From Clostridiales bacterium (lineage in GTDB: Bacteria > Bacillota > Clostridia > Peptostreptococcales > Anaerovoracaceae): a stretch of DNA of 64,000 bases. The translations under genes were made by a program, and so were the position numbers. This document shows, in pieces, positions 7,606-56,209 of this stretch. A model generated the notes under the pieces. It ran no database searches. It was not told the origin of the DNA and saw only the letters and a list, made by a program, of their open reading frames with translations. The stretch lies in assembly GCA_015058145.1 (NCBI GenBank), contig SVCX01000004.1, forward strand, positions 1-64,000. Reading direction: 5' to 3'. Each line of letters begins with the position of its first letter. Position 1 is the first letter of the stretch.

Positions 7606-8079
7606 GGAATGCACTTTGACAATTGAATATCCCTTCATCAGGTACTTTCGTTTTGACTGCGAGCATGCGATGACCGGCGCGCCATGATCCTGTGTTCAGG
7701 GGAGCGAGAAACGCAATGAGGATCCAAAAGGCAGGTTGCACCTGCAATTGTGCCATGACCAGCGAAGCGGACAATGATACTTCCGTCCGGCAGCACTAAG
7801 GTGCGGGGCGGCCCGTGGAGATCCTTCGGGGGAGTTCGATTCCCATGAGAGAGCCCAGCAACCTCTCGCCTGATGACAGACCCGGGATGGCCCGGGAAGC
7901 GGACGGAGCGCTGCGAATACTCCGCACATGATACGTCAAGATACTATCGGGGATCAGATCCTTCATTTGATACTGATCTGATCCCCCTGATTCTGAAAAA
8001 ACAGAGTCGGCATACATAGTTGTTTCAAGCACACCTATTTTGTTGTGCAGAGAAACGGCTGTGTATGCCGGCTTTTTTT
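7580..8079 (+). ncRNA. Structured non-coding RNA of IME1
   Basis: Transcription from the promoter at 7548 should start near 7583 and end at the terminator at 8006-8079, about 500 bases. Recognisable hairpins: 7689-7700 (CCTG/CAGG), 7731-7745 (GCAGGT/ACCTGC), 7793-7804 (GCAC/GTGC), 7881-7896 (CCCGGG/CCCGGG) and 7904-7924. A short stem at 7830-7844 closes a seven-base GTTCGAT loop like a tRNA T-loop. The IME2 copy keeps the hairpins with compensating base changes. No reading frame is conserved. It may be a regulatory RNA, a long leader of the ATPase gene, or part of a replication or transfer origin. Confidence 0.65.
8006..8079 (+). terminator. Terminator between the IME1 RNA and the ATPase gene
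   Basis: A 14-bp stem (8006-8019 with 8059-8072, two G-T pairs) is followed by seven T. A nested stem GTTTC/GAAAC lies inside. In IME2 the outer stem is nearly unchanged and the nested one is GTTTG/CAAAC, a compensating change. Transcripts must read through it to express the ATPase, unless that gene has its own promoter. Confidence 0.8.
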
Positions 8080-20555: not shown

Positions 20556-20993
20556 GGAACAAACCTTGACAACTGAATACCCATCATCAGGAACTTTCGT
20601 TTCGACTGCGAGCATGCGATGACCGGCGCGCCATGATCCCGGACCTTCCGGGGGAGCGAGAAACGCTATGAGGATCCAAAAGGGCAGATGGCATCTGCAA
20701 ATGTGCCACGACCAGCGGAGCGGACAATGATACTTCCGTCCGGCCATTTCGGTGGGGGCGGCCCGTGGAGATCCTTCGGGGGGTTCGATTCCCATGAGAG
20801 TGCTGCCCAGTCCAGCAGCCGCCTGATGACAGAGCCGGGAAGGCCCGGCAGCGCAGGTGGATGCGCTTCGAATGGATCCACCTATTACATTACATCAAAG
20901 CCCTGTTATACACATTACAGCTGGCATACATAGTCGTTTGGTAACACCTTTTTTGTGGTGCCATCAAACCGGCTGTGTATGCCGGCTTTTTTT
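20530..20993 (+). ncRNA. Structured non-coding RNA of IME2
   Basis: It is the counterpart of the IME1 RNA, about 460 bases. Hairpins: 20,638-20,652 (CCCGGA/TCCGGG), 20,684-20,698 (GCAGAT/ATCTGC), 20,834-20,849 (GCCGGG/CCCGGC) and 20,855-20,883 (AGGTGGAT/ATCCACCT). The GTTCGAT seven-base loop is at 20,83 x to the left of these, at 20,783-20,789. Relative to IME1 the stems show paired changes (GC to AT, CG to GC) while loops and linkers such as GCGAGCATGCGATGACCGG stay the same. That pattern argues for a functional RNA or single-strand DNA fold. Confidence 0.65.
20920..20993 (+). terminator. Terminator between the IME2 RNA and the ATPase gene
   Basis: The 14-base stem 20,920-20,933 with 20,973-20,986 is followed by seven T. 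The nested GTTTG/CAAAC stem differs from IME1 with pairing kept. Confidence 0.8.
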
Positions 20994-49240: not shown

Positions 49241-49645
49241 CTATAGTACTTCAACCCCTGCTTCTCTGAGCTTTGCCTCAGCTCCTTCAATGTCGTCCAC
49301 ACGGAAGACAACGTTCGCGCTTCCAGTAACTTCACCGGTATACGCATACATATACTCGATGTTTACGTTTGCGGATTCCAGCGCCTGCAGAATATCGTAG
49401 AGCGCTCCGGCTTTGTCTTCCATAACGGCGGAAACAACTTCCGTCGTAGTGATGATGTGATCGTCTTCCAGGACCTCCATGGCCTTCTTCGCGTCGGACA
49501 CGATGATTCTCAGAATGCCGAAGTCCCTGACTTCCGCGATAGTCATAGCGCGAAGATTAATGCCTGCCTCTGAAATGCGTTTTACGACTTCGTATAACTT
49601 CCCTGGTTTATTCTCAAGAAATACTGATAACTGTGTAATAGCCAT
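49241..49645 (-). CDS. Tandem ACT-domain protein
   Basis: The 134-residue product consists of two ACT domains (about 3-66, LSVFLENKPGKLYEVVKRIS, and about 70-134, VVSAVMEDKAGALYDILQAL). ACT modules bind amino acids. Proteins of this kind regularly sit beside phenylacetate-CoA ligase and indolepyruvate oxidoreductase genes in anaerobes and archaea. The likely role is sensing an aromatic amino acid and adjusting the pathway. It is 12 bases after the ligase gene, with AAGGAGG. Confidence 0.85.
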   Translation of the reverse strand: MAITQLSVFLENKPGKLYEVVKRISEAGINLRAMTIAEVRDFGILRIIVSDAKKAMEVLEDDHIITTTEVVSAVMEDKAGALYDILQALESANVNIEYMYAYTGEVTGSANVVFRVDDIEGAEAKLREAGVEVL

Positions 49646-49657
49646 TTTTGTTCCTCC

Positions 49658-50965
49658 TTAATCATGCAGTTTACGATTATCGATAACTCTGACAGCCTTA
49701 CCCTCGCTCCTTGTAATCGTCTTAGGCGGCACGAGGTGAATCTTCGGTCCGATGCCAAGCATCGTACGCATTGCAGATGCCAGACCCTTTTCCATGTCTT
49801 GTATATCGGCAATCTTATCGGAGATTTTGGATGGATCTGCCTCAACATAGATATCCAGCGTATCGGTGTTGTTCTCACGTCCTATTTCAATCTGATAGTT
49901 CGGCGTGTATCCCTCGTTCAGGAGCACCGTTTCAATCTGGCTCGGGAATACATTGACGCCGCGGATAATCAGCATGTCATCGCTTCTGCCCATAGGCTTG
50001 CTCATCTTGACGTGGGTACGTCCGCATGGGCATTTCTCGCGGCTGAGTACGCAAATGTCACGCGTTCTGTAACGCAGGAGCGGGAACGCTTCCTTGTCGA
50101 GAGCTGTGAAAACAAGTTCACCTTTGGATCCTTCCGGCAGCACCTCGCCGGTGTCCGGATCGATGATTTCCGCGTAGAAGTGGTCCTCATTGATATGCAT
50201 ACCGGCCTGCGCTTCACATTCGAAGGAAACCCCCGGGCCACTCGTCTCTGTGAGTCCATATATGTCGTAGGCCTTTATTCCAAGGCTTTTCTGTATGCTC
50301 TGACGCATCTCCTCCGTCCACGGTTCCGCGCCGAATATGCCCGCTTTCAGCTTGTTGTCCTCCGGCTTGTATCCTCTCTCTGCGAGAGACTCTCCGATAA
50401 ACGCTGCGTAGGAAGGTGTGCAGCAGAGGATCGTCGCATCTAAATCCATCATGAACTGGATCTGCCGCTCTGTATTTCCGGATGACATCGGCAGTGTCAG
50501 GCATCCGACCTTGTGGGATCCTCCGTGAAGCCCGGCGCCTCCTGTGAACAGTCCGTATCCATAGGCGACCTGAATTACATCCTCCTCTGTTCCTCCTGCG
50601 GCCACGATGGCTCTGGCGCAGCATTCTTCCCATAAATCCACATCGTGCTGCGTGTAGAAGGCCACAACACGCTTGCCGGTAGTTCCCGAAGTGGACTGGA
50701 TGCGGACACAGTCATTAAGATCTGTTCCCAGCAGTCCGTACGGATATGCTTCTCTCAGGTCTGCCTTAGAGAGGAACGGCAACTTTTTGATATCGTCCAC
50801 AGACTGGATATCGTCTGGCGTCAGCCCCTTCTCCTCCATCAGCTTTCTATAATAGGGTACGTTTTCGTATACGTGTTTGACCTGCTTGCGGATCTTCTCG
50901 TTCTGAATACGAAGAATCTCCTCCCGCGGCGCGGTCTCGATTTCTTTCTGATAATAGTTTGTCAT
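49658..50965 (-). CDS. paaK: Phenylacetate-CoA ligase
   Basis: The 435-residue product is full length for the PaaK family: AMP-binding loop IQSTSGTTGKRV (about 90-101), YGLTETSGPGVSFECEAQAG (about 233-252), and C-terminal domain with GRSDDMLIIRGVNVFPSQIE. It activates phenylacetate, and in relatives also indoleacetate or 4-hydroxyphenylacetate, with ATP and CoA. No aerobic paaABCDE ring-oxidation genes are nearby. Between a symporter and an ACT protein, behind a Tyr/Phe attenuator, the assignment to arylacetate assimilation is an inference. The indolepyruvate oxidoreductase it would feed is not in the window. Confidence 0.9.
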   Translation of the reverse strand: MTNYYQKEIETAPREEILRIQNEKIRKQVKHVYENVPYYRKLMEEKGLTPDDIQSVDDIKKLPFLSKADLREAYPYGLLGTDLNDCVRIQSTSGTTGKRVVAFYTQHDVDLWEECCARAIVAAGGTEEDVIQVAYGYGLFTGGAGLHGGSHKVGCLTLPMSSGNTERQIQFMMDLDATILCCTPSYAAFIGESLAERGYKPEDNKLKAGIFGAEPWTEEMRQSIQKSLGIKAYDIYGLTETSGPGVSFECEAQAGMHINEDHFYAEIIDPDTGEVLPEGSKGELVFTALDKEAFPLLRYRTRDICVLSREKCPCGRTHVKMSKPMGRSDDMLIIRGVNVFPSQIETVLLNEGYTPNYQIEIGRENNTDTLDIYVEADPSKISDKIADIQDMEKGLASAMRTMLGIGPKIHLVPPKTITRSEGKAVRVIDNRKLHD

Positions 50966-51016: not shown

Positions 51017-52576
51017 TTAATCACCCAAATTGTCCATAACCTCAACGGTTCTCTGTTCATGGTAGCAGGTGAAGATCTCATCCGTATTGTCCGGGATGCC
51101 TTTGCGTGTGAGAGCCGTTACGATTGGCACAATGACCAATCCTCCAACCATTGCGAACACACCTGAGTAAAGCGAATTCCTGAACACGAAGCTCAGCAGC
51201 GGGCTTCCAGCTACACTGATCATCTCCAGAGAAATGAACAGCTGAGTAATTTCAAGGAAGCACGCCCAGATGAAGCAACATGCTACCGCCGCCTTCGAAA
51301 TGTGCTTTGAGTACAGCCCATATAAGAACGGTGCCAGGAAGGATCCTGCCAACGCTCCCCAGGAGATTCCCATCATCTGCGCGATGAACAAGCTTTTCGC
51401 ATGTGCCTGCTTAATCGCTATAATTGCTGAAATGATTACAAATATAACGATAAATGCACGCATGATGACGACTTTCTTTCTCTCATCGATTGGATTCCTC
51501 TTCAGTGGCGCGATAAAGTCCAGCGTGATCGTCGATGAACTTGTCAGAACCAGCGATGACAGTGTGGACATGGACGCGGAGAGAACCAGAACGATGATGA
51601 TTCCGATGATAACCGGTGAAACCGTGGAAAGCATGCTTGGAATGACAGCGTCGAACCCTTCCGTTTCCACATCGATATCATACAGCCTTCCGAATCCTCC
51701 AAGGAAATAACACCCGCCTGCGACAATCAGTGCGAAAAATGTCGATATGACTGTGCCCTTCTTTATCGCATCCTCATTCGTGATGGCATAGAATTTACCG
51801 ACCATCTGTGGCAGTCCCCAAGTTCCCAGAGATGTCAGCATGATGACGAAGAACAGGAATCCCGGATCGGCACCGAGGAATGATGCATACTGCCAGCCTC
51901 CGTTTTCTCCCGTAGCCAACGACTCCATCGCGGCGTTCAGGCCTCCGTTATCATGCAGTACTGCCAGAATGACCGCAACGATTCCGATTAACATGATGCA
52001 ACCCTGAATGAAGTCATTCGTTGCCGTCGCCATGTAGCCTCCAAGTACTACATAGATGCAGGTCAGCACCGCCATAACCACAACGCAGACCGCGTAATCA
52101 AGTCCTGGGAATGCGATTGCGAAGAGCCTTGAAAGTCCGTTGTACAGAGACGCCGTATACGGGATCAGAAAGATGAAGGTGATAACTGATGCCGCAATTC
52201 TGAGCTTCTGGGATCCGAATCTCGATCCGAAGAAGTCAGGCATGGTGCGGCTGTCCAGATGCTGCGTCATGATTCTCGTGCGTCTTCCCAGGATCAACCA
52301 TGCGAGGAGTGAACCGATAAAGGCGTTCCCCAAGCCGATCCATGTGGACGCGAGTCCGAAGTTCCATCCGAACTGTCCGGCATATCCAACGAAGATAACT
52401 GCCGAAAAGTAGGAGGTGCCAAATGCAAAAGCACTCAGCCAAGGCCCTACGGATCTGGAACCAAGAACGAACCCTGTCACGCTTCTGGCATGCCTTCTTG
52501 TCCTTATGCCTATCGTAATCATGATCGCGAAGAAGATGATGATAAGCACCAAGGTCAAAGCTGTAGTAGTGTTCAT
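51017..52576 (-). CDS. SSS-family sodium:solute symporter
   Basis: The 519-residue product has about 13 helices and the SSS features (GYMATATNDFIQGCIMLIG in helix 5, then STISTL-like SASMSTLSSLVLTSSSTI near residue 350). The family moves sugars, proline, pantothenate, acetate and phenylacetate-type acids with sodium. It is the first gene of the operon behind the Tyr/Phe leader, 51 bases before paaK, so an aryl acid or aromatic amino acid is the likely substrate. This is inferred from context. Confidence 0.85.
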   Translation of the reverse strand: MNTTTALTLVLIIIFFAIMITIGIRTRRHARSVTGFVLGSRSVGPWLSAFAFGTSYFSAVIFVGYAGQFGWNFGLASTWIGLGNAFIGSLLAWLILGRRTRIMTQHLDSRTMPDFFGSRFGSQKLRIAASVITFIFLIPYTASLYNGLSRLFAIAFPGLDYAVCVVVMAVLTCIYVVLGGYMATATNDFIQGCIMLIGIVAVILAVLHDNGGLNAAMESLATGENGGWQYASFLGADPGFLFFVIMLTSLGTWGLPQMVGKFYAITNEDAIKKGTVISTFFALIVAGGCYFLGGFGRLYDIDVETEGFDAVIPSMLSTVSPVIIGIIIVLVLSASMSTLSSLVLTSSSTITLDFIAPLKRNPIDERKKVVIMRAFIVIFVIISAIIAIKQAHAKSLFIAQMMGISWGALAGSFLAPFLYGLYSKHISKAAVACCFIWACFLEITQLFISLEMISVAGSPLLSFVFRNSLYSGVFAMVGGLVIVPIVTALTRKGIPDNTDEIFTCYHEQRTVEVMDNLGD

Positions 52577-52628
52577 AAAAAGTCCTTTCTTGTATAAAAT
52601 AATAATAATTGACAGTAACAGTAAAAGA

Positions 52629-52661
52629 AAAAGCGCCTCAGGTTAACCTGTGACGCTTCGA
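52629..52661 (-). terminator. Attenuator terminator of the SSS-paaK operon
   Basis: On minus, AGCGTC-A-CAGG, loop TTAA, CCTG-A-GGCGCT is followed by TTTTCTTTT. It lies between the leader peptide and the first structural gene. Its 12-base core CAGGTTAACCTG (52,639-52,650) is identical to that in the trpB attenuator. Confidence 0.85.
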
Positions 52662-52709
52662 ACTTTACTAAATTGTTTTAGCTACTCATTCTAACATCGC
52701 AAATTAACC

Positions 52710-52778
52710 TTACTGCCCCCCAGTAAAGCCGAAGTAAAAGTAGTAGTATGCATTTGCGATGTTCATTGTTTTAGCCAT
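52710..52778 (-). CDS. Leader peptide rich in Tyr and Phe codons
   Basis: ATG at 52,778, stop TAA at 52,710-52,712, 22 codons, with AGGAG upstream. Codons 9-18 read NAYYYFYFGF: four Tyr and three Phe within eight codons. Codons 6-9 (AACATCGCAAAT) are perfectly complementary to ATTTGCGATGTT just after the stop. Codons 15-19 (CTTCGGCTTTACT) are complementary to AGTAAAGTTCGAAG at the base of the terminator. These two pairings exclude each other. Slow reading of the Tyr/Phe codons would block the first and favour the second, an antiterminator. Confidence 0.85.
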   Translation of the reverse strand: MAKTMNIANAYYYFYFGFTGGQ

Positions 52779-52823
52779 TTGTATCTCCTGCGCGCTCACT
52801 TGCACGCTTTAATTACGTAAACT

Positions 52824-52852
52824 AAACTATCACACTTGCAAAGGCATGTCAA
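52824..52852 (-). promoter_or_regulatory. Promoter of the leader-SSS-paaK-ACT operon
   Basis: On minus TTGACA (52,847-52,852), 17 bases, TAGTTT (52,824-52,829), about 45 bases before the leader ATG. Confidence 0.75.
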
Positions 52853-52861
52853 CCTGTTTTC

Positions 52862-53497
52862 TCAAAAGTTTTTGATCAGCAGCACTCTGCCCTTCGCAAC
52901 GGATATCTCTGCAGTCTCTCCCGGCAGGACTTCATTGCTGACTGCGTACTGGTAATCCCAATCGATCTGTCCGTTCTCCAGAGGGAACTTCGCGTTCCGG
53001 ATGGTGATGCCTTCCGCCTCTCCGGTGAGATTCAGAACTGAGAAATACGGATAAGAATCCTCGATTCGCGCCTTGCCCGGTTTCCCGCTGCGCGCAGAGA
53101 CAACTTCTATTTCAGAATAATCGTCGATTGCTTCTGCGCTTTTACCCGCCGTATCAAGCATAAAAAGAATCGACAGGTTCCCCAACGTATGGTCCAGCCG
53201 TGCTCCAATCACGCCGACCAGCAGAAACTCCTCGTATCCGCGCCGGACCATCTCCTTCGCAGCAAAGAAGGTATCTGTGTCGTCCTTTTCACGCGGCAGT
53301 ACGATGGTCTCCACGTCCGTATCCGGCTTCTCGTGGGAATCGAAATCTCCCACAATCAAGTCTGGCTTTACGCCGAGCCCTTCCATGTGCTTCAACCCGC
53401 TGTCACAGAAGACAAAAAAATCATCTGTGCGCAGTTCGTTACGCACTTGTTCGTATTTATCTATCCCCGCTCCGCCGATGATCACACAGCGTCTCAT
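52862..53497 (-). CDS. Thiamine diphosphokinase
   Basis: The start is the ATG at 53,497 (MRRCVIIGGAG), with GGGAGG upstream. The 211-residue product has the two-domain TPK pattern: FVFCDSGLKHMEGLGVKPDL and GDFDSHEKP (active-site Asp), EKDDTDTFFAAKEM, GARLDHTLGNLS, then a beta-rich C-terminal thiamine-binding domain. It makes thiamine diphosphate from thiamine and ATP. No TPP riboswitch was recognised upstream. It sits alone between the two attenuated units. Confidence 0.9.
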   Translation of the reverse strand: MRRCVIIGGAGIDKYEQVRNELRTDDFFVFCDSGLKHMEGLGVKPDLIVGDFDSHEKPDTDVETIVLPREKDDTDTFFAAKEMVRRGYEEFLLVGVIGARLDHTLGNLSILFMLDTAGKSAEAIDDYSEIEVVSARSGKPGKARIEDSYPYFSVLNLTGEAEGITIRNAKFPLENGQIDWDYQYAVSNEVLPGETAEISVAKGRVLLIKNF

Positions 53498-53532
53498 AAC
53501 AACCTCCCGGTCCATATATTGCTTTTCTTATA

Positions 53533-54402
53533 TTATCTCGTTACCGCTCCCGCCGCAACACAAATCAGAATGATCAGCGCCCCGGCAATTCCTGCCGCTG
53601 ACAGCTGTTCCCCAAGCAGCAGCAGGGAGAAGACCGCAGTCATGACCGGGCATAGACTCTGCAGAAGCGCGACAGCACGGTCGGAGATCTTCGTGAGCGC
53701 CAGGTTTTGCATCAGATATCCCAGGAACGTGCATGTGACCGCCAAGTAGAGGATGATCAGCCAGGCCGTTCCGGTTGTCGTTTCAAGGTGTATGCCGCCT
53801 TCTATAAACGCGCACCCGAGCAGGGCGAGCACCGCCGAACAGCCCGCCTGAAGGGATGTCATGCTCGCCGCGTCCACCATCTCCAGATAGTTTTTGCTGA
53901 ACACCAGCGCGCCTGCCATCAGCGCGGCGGCGGCGAGCGCTACTACTTCACCGGCGCCAAAGCCGGACAGACCGCCTCTGACACAGAGAAGATATGTGCC
54001 CGGCAGCACCATGATCTGAATCAGGATAAGCTGCCACTTGTAATGCGTCCGATACGCGAGAAAAGCAAGCGCAGGCGTCATGACGACGGAAAGAGAACGC
54101 AGAAACGCCACTGACGTGGCGTCCGTCATGGACAGCGCAACATTGTTGAGCAGGTAACTCATCCCGATGCACACGCCCGGAATGAGCCACGCTTTGACAG
54201 GTACTGTCTTCAGCGTATGAACGATCTTCCTCCGGAATATGACAGCGCAAATGATGAAGGCAATCAAATAGCGCACCGACATCATCGTGTACACCGGCGT
54301 GACCTCAAAAGCGATTTTCGAAATGGGATCACCAAAGCCGTAAATAACGGACTGCAGGATGATCAGAGCCTCGGGCCATCTGCTGAATCGTTCGCGTTCC
54401 AT
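53533..54402 (-). CDS. EamA/DMT-family transporter
   Basis: The ATG at 54,402 (MERERFSRWPEAL) follows TATAAT (54,410-54,415) by seven bases and has no ribosome site, so the mRNA may be leaderless. The 289-residue product has ten helices in two EamA repeats. It is divergent from the trpB leader: only about 47 bases separate their promoter regions. An aromatic compound is a possible substrate, from position only. Confidence 0.8.
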   Translation of the reverse strand: MERERFSRWPEALIILQSVIYGFGDPISKIAFEVTPVYTMMSVRYLIAFIICAVIFRRKIVHTLKTVPVKAWLIPGVCIGMSYLLNNVALSMTDATSVAFLRSLSVVMTPALAFLAYRTHYKWQLILIQIMVLPGTYLLCVRGGLSGFGAGEVVALAAAALMAGALVFSKNYLEMVDAASMTSLQAGCSAVLALLGCAFIEGGIHLETTTGTAWLIILYLAVTCTFLGYLMQNLALTKISDRAVALLQSLCPVMTAVFSLLLLGEQLSAAGIAGALIILICVAAGAVTR

Positions 54403-54449
54403 GTCAGTTATTATATCACTGCTTCGGAAAACAATATAAAAACTTTTTC

Positions 54450-54478
54450 TTGACAACATCCGGATGCCGTGCTACTTT
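54450..54478 (+). promoter_or_regulatory. Promoter of the trpB attenuator
   Basis: TTGACA (54,450-54,455), 17 bases, TACTTT (54,473-54,478). The leader ATG follows 35 bases later. The architecture equals that of the SSS-paaK operon promoter. Confidence 0.75.
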
Positions 54479-54512
54479 AGTCCCATAAAGAAGACTTGTC
54501 AGGAGAAATCAA

Positions 54513-54572
54513 ATGGTCATTACAAGAGTTATGACAAATGCATACTGGTGGCGCGGCAGTTTTACAACCTAA
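54513..54572 (+). CDS. Trp leader peptide of trpB
   Basis: ATG at 54,513 with AGGAG seven bases before, 19 codons, stop TAA at 54,570. The peptide is MVITRVMTNAYWWRGSFTT with tandem Trp codons 12-13. Segment 1 (54,548-54,559, over the Trp codons) can pair with segment 2 (54,584-54,596). Segment 2 can instead pair with the left arm of the terminator (CCTGT with ACAGG, GTTGC with GCGGC). A ribosome held at the Trp codons would cover segment 1 and so favour readthrough, the classical enteric trp attenuation logic. Confidence 0.85.
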   Translation: MVITRVMTNAYWWRGSFTT

Positions 54573-54637
54573 GAGTGTAAGGCCTGTTGGCGTTGCGTAG
54601 AATCTAAACGGATAAGACACATAGAAACAGATATACA

Positions 54638-54670
54638 AGCGGCACAGGTTAACCTGGAGCCGCTGTTTTA
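54638..54670 (+). terminator. Attenuator terminator of trpB
   Basis: AGCGGC-A-CAGG, loop TTAA, CCTG-GA-GCCGCT (54,638-54,664), followed by GTTTTATT. The core CAGGTTAACCTG (54,645-54,656) is shared with the Tyr/Phe attenuator. Confidence 0.85.
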
Positions 54671-54683
54671 TTAGGAGGATGAA

Positions 54684-54728
54684 ATGAAACTATATACCAG
54701 GAGTTGGCGCACCCGCGCCGGAATATGA
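54684..54728 (+). CDS. Second short reading frame before trpB
   Basis: After the terminator, TAGGAGGATGAA precedes an ATG that opens a 14-codon frame, MKLYTRSWRTRAGI, with one Trp codon inside a hairpin GGCGC-ACCC-GCGCC. The SWRT end resembles trp leader peptides. No terminator follows. It could be a second control point or a decayed leader. The bases from 54,729 to 54,835 hold nothing else but the trpB ribosome site (AAAGGAAAC). Confidence 0.5.
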   Translation: MKLYTRSWRTRAGI

Positions 54729-54835: not shown

Positions 54836-56209
54836 ATGACTAAGGAACAGATTCCATATAAGATATACCTCGAAGAAGATGAGATGCCGAAGGCATGGTA
54901 CAACCTGCGGGCGGACATGATCAACAAGCCTGCCCCGCTCATCCATCCGGGAACCCATCAGCCGATGACCCTTGAAGAACTTTCGCCAGTATTCTGCGAA
55001 GAACTCTGCAAGCAGGAACTGAACAACACGGATCCGTTCATCGAGATTCCGCAGGAAATCCGGGATTTCTACAAGATGTACAGACCGTCTCCTCTCATCA
55101 GGGCTTACTGCCTGGAAGAGAAACTGGGAACACCGGCGAAGATCTACTACAAGTTCGAGGGAAACAACACCAGCGGAAGCCACAAGCTGAACTCTGCCAT
55201 CGCCCAGGCCTACTACGCCAAGAAGCAGGGTCTGAAAGGCGTTACGACGGAGACCGGTGCCGGTCAGTGGGGAACGGCCCTTTCCATGGCCTGCTCCTAT
55301 TTCGATCTCGACTGCAAAGTCTTCATGGTCAAGGTGTCTTATGAGCAGAAGCCATTCAGAAGAGAAGTTATGCGTACCTACGGCGCTTCCGTGACACCGT
55401 CACCGTCTGAAACAACGCAGATCGGAAAGAAGATTCTCGAAGCCCATCCTGGAACCACCGGAAGCCTGGGCTGCGCTATTTCAGAAGCCGTTGAAGTCGC
55501 TACGTCAACGCCGGGCTACAGATATGTACTGGGAAGCGTTCTGAATCAGGTACTGCTTCACCAGTCCATCATCGGCCTTGAGACTAAGGCAGCTCTGGAC
55601 AAGTACGGTATCAAACCTGATATGATCATCGGCTGCGCCGGCGGCGGATCCAATTTGGGCGGACTCATTGCTCCGTTCATGGGAGAGAAGATCAAGGGCA
55701 ACGCCGACTACCGCATCATCGCAGTCGAGCCGCAGTCCTGTCCAAGCTTCACCAGAGGTAAATACGCATATGACTTCGCTGACACAGGAATGGTTTGTCC
55801 GCTGGCCAAGATGTACACTCTCGGCAGCAACTTCATCCCTGCCCCGAACCACGCAGGCGGTCTGAGATACCACGGCATGAGCCCTGTACTTTCACAGCTC
55901 TACGACGACGGTCTCATGGAAGCCATCGCTGTTCCGCAGACAGAAGTGTTCGCAGCGGCCGAGGAATTCGCCAGAGTCGAGGGAATCCTCCCTGCTCCGG
56001 AAAGTTCACACGCCATTAAGGTCGCCCTGGACGAGGCGAAGAAATGCGTTGAGACCGGCGAGGAAAAGACCATCGTATTCGGCCTGACCGGAACCGGCTA
56101 CTTCGATATGGTCGCTTACGAAAAGTACCACAACGGCGTTATGGACGATTACATTCCAACCGATGAAGAACTTGAGAAATACTTTGCAACATTGCCTCCA
56201 GTTGAATAG
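54836..56209 (+). CDS. trpB: Tryptophan synthase beta chain, TrpB2 type
   Basis: The 457-residue product is longer than classical TrpB (about 400) and has the TrpB2 N-terminal extension. The PLP lysine lies in GSHKLNSAIAQAYYAK, the phosphate loop is GCAGGGSNLGG, and ETGAGQWGTALS holds the catalytic Glu-type segment. It condenses indole with serine. No trpA or other trp genes adjoin, so indole must come from outside or another pathway. It is preceded by its own Trp-codon attenuator, which implies synthesis on Trp shortage. Confidence 0.92.
   Translation: MTKEQIPYKIYLEEDEMPKAWYNLRADMINKPAPLIHPGTHQPMTLEELSPVFCEELCKQELNNTDPFIEIPQEIRDFYKMYRPSPLIRAYCLEEKLGTPAKIYYKFEGNNTSGSHKLNSAIAQAYYAKKQGLKGVTTETGAGQWGTALSMACSYFDLDCKVFMVKVSYEQKPFRREVMRTYGASVTPSPSETTQIGKKILEAHPGTTGSLGCAISEAVEVATSTPGYRYVLGSVLNQVLLHQSIIGLETKAALDKYGIKPDMIIGCAGGGSNLGGLIAPFMGEKIKGNADYRIIAVEPQSCPSFTRGKYAYDFADTGMVCPLAKMYTLGSNFIPAPNHAGGLRYHGMSPVLSQLYDDGLMEAIAVPQTEVFAAAEEFARVEGILPAPESSHAIKVALDEAKKCVETGEEKTIVFGLTGTGYFDMVAYEKYHNGVMDDYIPTDEELEKYFATLPPVE

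Follow-up and report, generated by a model that had tools for sequence, protein, structure and literature searches.

How two amino-acid switches that lie 1.9 kb apart, one on the minus and one on the plus strand, come to share the same terminator core is the question raised by the window, i.e. the whole 64,000-nucleotide stretch of contig SVCX01000004.1 (Clostridiales bacterium, Anaerovoracaceae) analysed here. The core, CAGGTTAACCTG, occurs in exact copies at 52639-52650 (Tyr/Phe switch) and 54645-54656 (Trp switch). With up to one mismatch the window contains just these two matches, where shuffles lead to an expectation of 0.10, and the exact count is also two across the 1.53 Mb draft genome (80% complete), both being terminator cores of complete attenuators. 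Each core is followed 3' by a T-run in the correct orientation for its terminator. The original prediction of a duplicated and re-targeted cassette was built on this core, on leader bases common to the Tyr/Phe and Trp leader ORFs (AAATGCATACT), on the peptide motif NAY and on the promoter spacing TTGACA-17-TAnTTT, all of which are exact in this window. The two elements are very probably members of a single homologous family of ribosome-mediated transcription attenuators, re-coded for new target genes.

The order within each unit is promoter, short ORF for a leader peptide containing the control codons, alternative stems, terminator and gene. The Tyr/Phe unit, located entirely on the minus strand, starts with a putative promoter, TTGACA-17-TAGTTT (52824..52852), recognised by its consensus match only, and continues with the leader peptide ORF MAKTMNIANAYYYFYFGFTGGQ (52710..52778), which is kept in relatives. 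Inside this ORF lie region 1 (ACATCGCAAAT, 52752..52762), the partner of region 2, and the conserved control codons TAC TAC TAC TTT TAC TTC (YYYFYF, 52731..52748), retained in six of the seven inner-clade species examined. The 1:2 stem is kept across nine Tyr leaders, with double changes at two of its pairs. Region 2 (AAGGTTAATTTGCGATGTTAGAAT, 52688..52711) is the antiterminator strand, assigned by its pairing with the 5' arm, loop and core of the terminator and by covariation, and regions 3:4 form the intrinsic terminator GAAGCGTCACAGGTTAACCTGAGGCGCTTTTTC (52627..52659, including the core), according to folding and relatives. Behind it follow a sodium:solute symporter (SSF, 51017..52576; Pfam PF00474, E 3e-50), a phenylacetate-CoA ligase-like gene (PaaK, 49658..50965; database match and gene order) as second gene of the SSF operon, and a paired ACT-domain protein (49241..49645; PF19571) as the last one. 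The order SSF-PaaK is constant at every Tyr-leader locus whose surroundings were covered.

The Trp unit, on the plus strand, has a putative promoter, TTGACA-17-TACTTT (54450..54478), again a consensus match only, and the leader peptide ORF MVITRVMTNAYWWRGSFTT (54513..54572) with the control codons TGG TGG (54546..54551), ORF and codons both being found in relatives; all relatives having a Trp leader carry two or three UGG codons. Its region 2 (AAGGCCTGTTGGCGTTGCGTAG, 54579..54600) forms the antiterminator strand, and regions 3:4 form the intrinsic terminator AGCGGCACAGGTTAACCTGGAGCCGCTGTTTTA (54638..54670, core included; folding, relatives). The gene behind this attenuator is a TrpB2-type tryptophan synthase beta (54836..56209; NCBIfam PRK12391, E 1.8e-206, and TIGR01415, besides TrpB2 structures). 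Between terminator and TrpB2 lies a second mini-ORF, MKLYTRSWRTRAGI (54684..54728), with the hairpin GGCGC-ACCC-GCGCC (pattern GGCGC-NNCC-GCGCC in this genome). In several Clostridia, mini-ORFs of the form M..TKRWR or M+LYTKxWRxRAG lie ahead of TrpB2, following its T-box or attenuator (window 54684-54728 and loci L142, L132, L135, L167, L182, L186 and L202), and the conserved TrpB2 mini-ORF is possibly a second control.

Both leader peptides, whose translation is predicted, are conserved and carry tandem codons for the amino acid of the pathway, YYYFYF ahead of the symporter of the SSF-PaaK-ACT operon and WW(W) ahead of TrpB2 (WW in this genome), and at both units a GC hairpin with a U-run is placed between leader ORF and gene. 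An Rfam scan of both leaders returned no known family above threshold. Neither leader shows a T-box (Stem I specifier loop plus the sequence GGTGGNACCGC), as judged by Rfam match and T-box sequence. Elsewhere in the window, two matches to pemK RNA (RF02913) exceed the gathering score (7771-7848 and 20724-20797).

Region 2 (GTAAGGTTAATTTGCGATG...) pairs either with region 1 of the leader ORF or with the 5' arm, the loop and half of the core of the terminator. The duplex with the terminator comes to -23 kcal/mol in the Tyr leader of this genome and to -17 in its Trp leader, the terminators themselves to -16 and -17, and in most sequences the antiterminator duplex is at least as stable as the terminator. 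In a joint alignment the antiterminator helix uses the same columns in both leader sets, with 84% of the cells paired (at most 42% when slid) and nine pairs with double changes; GGATAA:TTATCC of the older Tyr leaders corresponds to GGTTAA:TTAACC in the inner clade, a paired change. The mutually exclusive antiterminator of region 2 and terminator arm is thus present in both sets, but weaker for the Trp set taken alone, in which antiterminator covariation is not above shuffles; four Trp leaders possess a shifted antiterminator register (GGCCTGT).

We infer stalling and readthrough from this layout together with what is established for trp-type attenuation. A shortage of charged tRNA-Tyr/Phe or tRNA-Trp would make the ribosome stall at the control codons and mask region 1; region 2 would then bind the terminator 5' arm and loop, letting the polymerase continue into the symporter operon or, in the Trp unit, TrpB2. 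With ample amino acid, region 1 would pair with region 2, the terminator would form and transcription would end. The loop does double duty, in terminator and antiterminator, hence the palindromic look of the core.

Both units are present in eight genus-mates, six located first and then G046 and G047, and in G041 a Trp terminator is visible at the contig start. Peptide, codon run and terminator are conserved among the genus-mates for both units. In the Tyr units of the inner clade CAGGTTAACCTG is invariant; the older Tyr leaders (G015, G037) have AGGTTATCCTG, their core form also being given as CAGGTTATCCTG. Trp cores elsewhere are mostly CAGGTTgACCTG, with the variants CAGGTTGACCTG, CAGGTTGAACTG and CAGGCAGACCTG among other species, and the Trp leader peptides of relatives mostly read NGY, once SGY, in place of NAY. 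Since the relatives' Trp leaders differ at these positions, the palindrome of the Trp unit, one derived base, and its NAY are late local changes. A search for NAYWW in 120 relatives yielded five matches beyond this genome (same order, other families), mostly in unrelated frames. In G025 (L054) the Tyr leader peptide between TrpB2 and SSF is apparently lost or truncated, and the terminator GCGGAGCAGGTTATCCTG persists.

The palindrome had also been proposed as a protein site, which would make CAGGTTAACCTG the DNA target of a repressor or activator common to both operons. A perfect 12-base palindrome in exactly two places of the genome, invariant among the inner-clade Tyr leaders, would suit such a site. 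However, nine other species have Trp leaders that retain the hairpin without the palindrome, older Tyr leaders carry a different core, base changes track the RNA pairing with region 2, and the core is located in the terminator, 3' of the leader ORF. We consequently reject the protein site, which appears highly improbable, on account of the palindrome not being preserved in the relatives' Trp leaders.

Homology of the two leader types is indicated by their cross-recognition. An HMM built from nine Tyr leaders assigns up to 31.7 bits to Trp leaders, the top of 2100 dinucleotide shuffles being 11.0, and a Trp HMM assigns 25.8 bits to Tyr leaders versus 4.6 for shuffles. In a search of 428 kb of collected loci the best Trp match is full length with E 2.6e-8, and the pre-terminator portion of the G019 leader alone scores 14.4 versus 5.3. 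The 90 nt 5' of the leader ORFs show no similarity beyond shuffles; the leader ORF and the T-run therefore mark the two ends of the shared cassette, and the resemblance of the promoters is a generic one. Promoter geometry is accordingly withdrawn as evidence of kinship, and of the shared bases those counted among the likeness beyond chance, confined to leader, antiterminator and terminator, retain their value, whereas NAY and the palindrome of the Trp unit are species-specific. Convergence, by which two independent attenuators would have become alike through common needs (codon run, alternative stems, GC-rich terminator), might draw on the 12-base identity, which in this genome is partly due to one derived base, and on the separate-design Trp leaders that precede TrpB2 in other Clostridia (L164, L187), but it is improbable: cross-recognition far exceeds shuffles preserving dinucleotides or the codon run, and the antiterminator occupies the same columns in both leader sets. 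The L164 and L187 leaders follow the design FGF.SGWWFSR.F.VP, are unmatched there by the covariance model R1 described below, and probably represent an unrelated attenuator.

R1 comprises SSF and Trp leaders only, with no aroF leader, and was run against 249 Lachnospiraceae genomes, the assignment to this family being based on named TrpB2 relatives in the genome collection. It matches 21 additional Lachnospiraceae genomes, with aroF (DAHP synthase, the enzyme that opens aromatic amino-acid synthesis) downstream in 20 of 20 readable cases and leader peptides rich in Tyr/Phe at these loci. Among 38 aroF genes selected by protein, a set free of R1 selection bias, 22 possess a Tyr/Phe-type leader peptide and none a T-box. 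A second covariance model, R2, which includes aroF leaders, finds matches in 138 of 351 Lachnospiraceae genomes and, across the class, in 32 of 291 sampled genomes, most of the latter ahead of aroF and one ahead of a pheA-type gene with Phe codons; aroF is the downstream gene for 43 of the 58 fetched Lachnospiraceae R2 matches. Further targets, each with a codon run suited to its gene, are pheA (leader run FFF.SFTF), tyrA (YYYYY), a tyrosine phenol-lyase/tryptophanase-family gene (TPL-like, YYYYYY), iorA (YYFDFYF) and, in a genus-mate, PaaK (FTFNFSFFFSF), and for these leaders 0/300 shuffles with the codon run kept attain the real score. Further copies with other codon runs had been anticipated: in this genome (80% complete) the covariance models match the two known copies and no third one, while related genomes do contain copies with Phe-only, Tyr-only, Tyr/Phe and Trp runs.

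The R2 matches L311, L359 and L361 are apparently false positives, and the leader of a TrpX-type binding protein (L331) failed the shuffle test. Six-Tyr leaders precede the tyrosine phenol-lyase/tryptophanase-family gene at L286, L296, L301, L308 and L313, all in one Lachnospiraceae genus, suggesting that a tyrosine phenol-lyase-like enzyme is used there for tyrosine synthesis under scarcity. L322 (G002, same genus as the window) possesses a Phe-rich family leader immediately 5' of a PaaK-type ligase, SSF being absent. In G347, six- and four-Tyr family leaders (L274, L275) are placed before putative deoxyribonuclease IV and HD-GYP genes, which are unexpected targets.

The cassette is commonest in Clostridia as a Tyr/Phe-coded form before aroF, and copies appear to have been placed before other aromatic amino-acid genes and their run re-coded, to Phe for pheA and PaaK, to Tyr for tyrA and the TPL-like gene, and to Trp for TrpB2. 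The aroF-type family profile scores the SSF leaders at 23-56 bits (0/300 shuffles with the codon run kept reach this), and the aroF HMM scores five of seven Trp leaders, including that of this genome, at 12-27 bits (0/300 run-kept shuffles) and fails to recover the other two, both sets of scores being biased upward because the aroF leaders of that HMM were selected by R1. A tentative alternative, plausible but short of probable, is that the SSF and TrpB2 attenuators are related and were each taken independently from an aroF-type cassette, neither from the other. The SSF leaders have their best score with the aroF leader L103 (43.9 bits), and the Trp leaders match the aroF leader L100 (19.9 bits), which already contains Trp codons (WYWYY) and has GTAAGGTCAGTTTGCA in common with the G004 Trp leader; moreover, a tree constrained to SSF+Trp is no better than the free tree. 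Yet Trp leaders score up to 25.8 with SSF leaders, versus 19.9 with the best aroF leader tested, the two cassettes lie 1.3-6 kb apart in one clade, and the Trp form is exclusive to that clade. The codon-run-masked leader tree, which is poorly resolved, neither demands nor excludes an SSF+Trp grouping (AU p 0.35). Of the proposed duplication and re-targeting, one family with a codon run changed by target stands, and the Trp copy may have come from either the SSF or an aroF-type cassette. We lean towards a class-wide Clostridia cassette that spreads by copying and codon-run swaps over at least seven kinds of aromatic amino-acid genes and that displaced a tRNA-Trp T-box in this clade.

The T-box side of this history is seen in genus-mates outside the inner clade, where TrpB2 possesses a T-box with specifier UGG at 14 of 15 loci scanned; across Clostridia, a T-box is detected by sequence motif at at least 56 of 80 TrpB2 loci. 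SSF homologues in genus-mates have UAC T-boxes, the specifier position being calibrated with ileS and asnB T-boxes. Tyr (UAC) T-boxes also occur before AMP-dependent ligase genes of genus-mates (L076, L078, L079). Since most TrpB2 genes outside the clade carry Trp T-boxes, the Trp attenuator probably displaced one. G015 combines a Tyr attenuator at SSF with a UGG T-box at TrpB2, and hence the SSF cassette probably predates the TrpB2 cassette within this clade. In the TrpB2 tree the genes of the clade group weakly with L142, L148 and L182, apart from the genus-mates, and the TrpB2 gene may have an outside origin. At L142 and L182 a mini-ORF with an RWR core comes after the T-box; the inner clade retains such a mini-ORF between attenuator and TrpB2, an arrangement that fits displacement of the T-box upstream of the mini-ORF. 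The T-boxed SSF homologues, at 58-66% identity and with no PaaK neighbour, may be paralogues. Because of this, and because the clade's TrpB2 and that of the genus-mates are not sisters, a simple in-place swap of the T-box is one possible course.

The kind of mechanism, ribosome-mediated attenuation, is classical. Attenuators of trp, phe and his operons are described from Proteobacteria and Actinobacteria, with a predicted one before trpB2A of Corynebacterium diphtheriae (PMC1262725); they likewise comprise a tandem-codon leader peptide, 1:2, 2:3 and 3:4 stems and an intrinsic terminator, but belong to other phyla and another sequence family; in the present case several genes with varied runs share one cassette family. 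The uORFC-13-1 motif before aroF, known from 24 sequences of Acholeplasma and environmental samples only (PMC8632094), similarly has a predicted uORF with Phe codon(s) preceding a terminator, but its description links it neither to SSF, TrpB2, tyrA or pheA nor to re-coding. T-boxes (RF00230) serve the same genes and amino acids in genus-mates (UGG at TrpB2, UAC at SSF homologues), but sense uncharged tRNA directly, without a leader peptide, and are missing at both genes in this clade. For Firmicutes, the part of PMC9413887 drawn on here offers a precedent that concerns histidine: leader-peptide attenuators in lineages whose histidine genes lack a T-box or HisR regulation, and evolutionary changes between T-box, repressor and attenuator. 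Duplication with an altered codon run is not described in that part. A search confined to the open literature yielded no account of this Clostridia aromatic/aroF attenuator family, the Acholeplasma motif being nearest.

Leader-peptide attenuators are usually viewed as arising per operon, and T-boxes are generally assumed to control the amino-acid genes of Firmicutes. In this family a homologous cassette, its antiterminator conserved, bears varied runs in front of different genes within single genera. This natural series may indicate the minimal base changes needed for re-targeting and how a leader-peptide switch supplants a T-box. We infer the physiology, like the direction of copying: both switches would raise aromatic amino-acid salvage upon shortage, SSF-PaaK by uptake and activation of aromatic precursors and TrpB2 by conversion of indole to tryptophan. 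If the class-wide re-coded cassette is true, the evolution of a new amino-acid switch can be read off. The family also marks a broad, apparently undescribed control layer that, in Clostridia of gut and rumen, acts on aroF and on genes of aromatic salvage.
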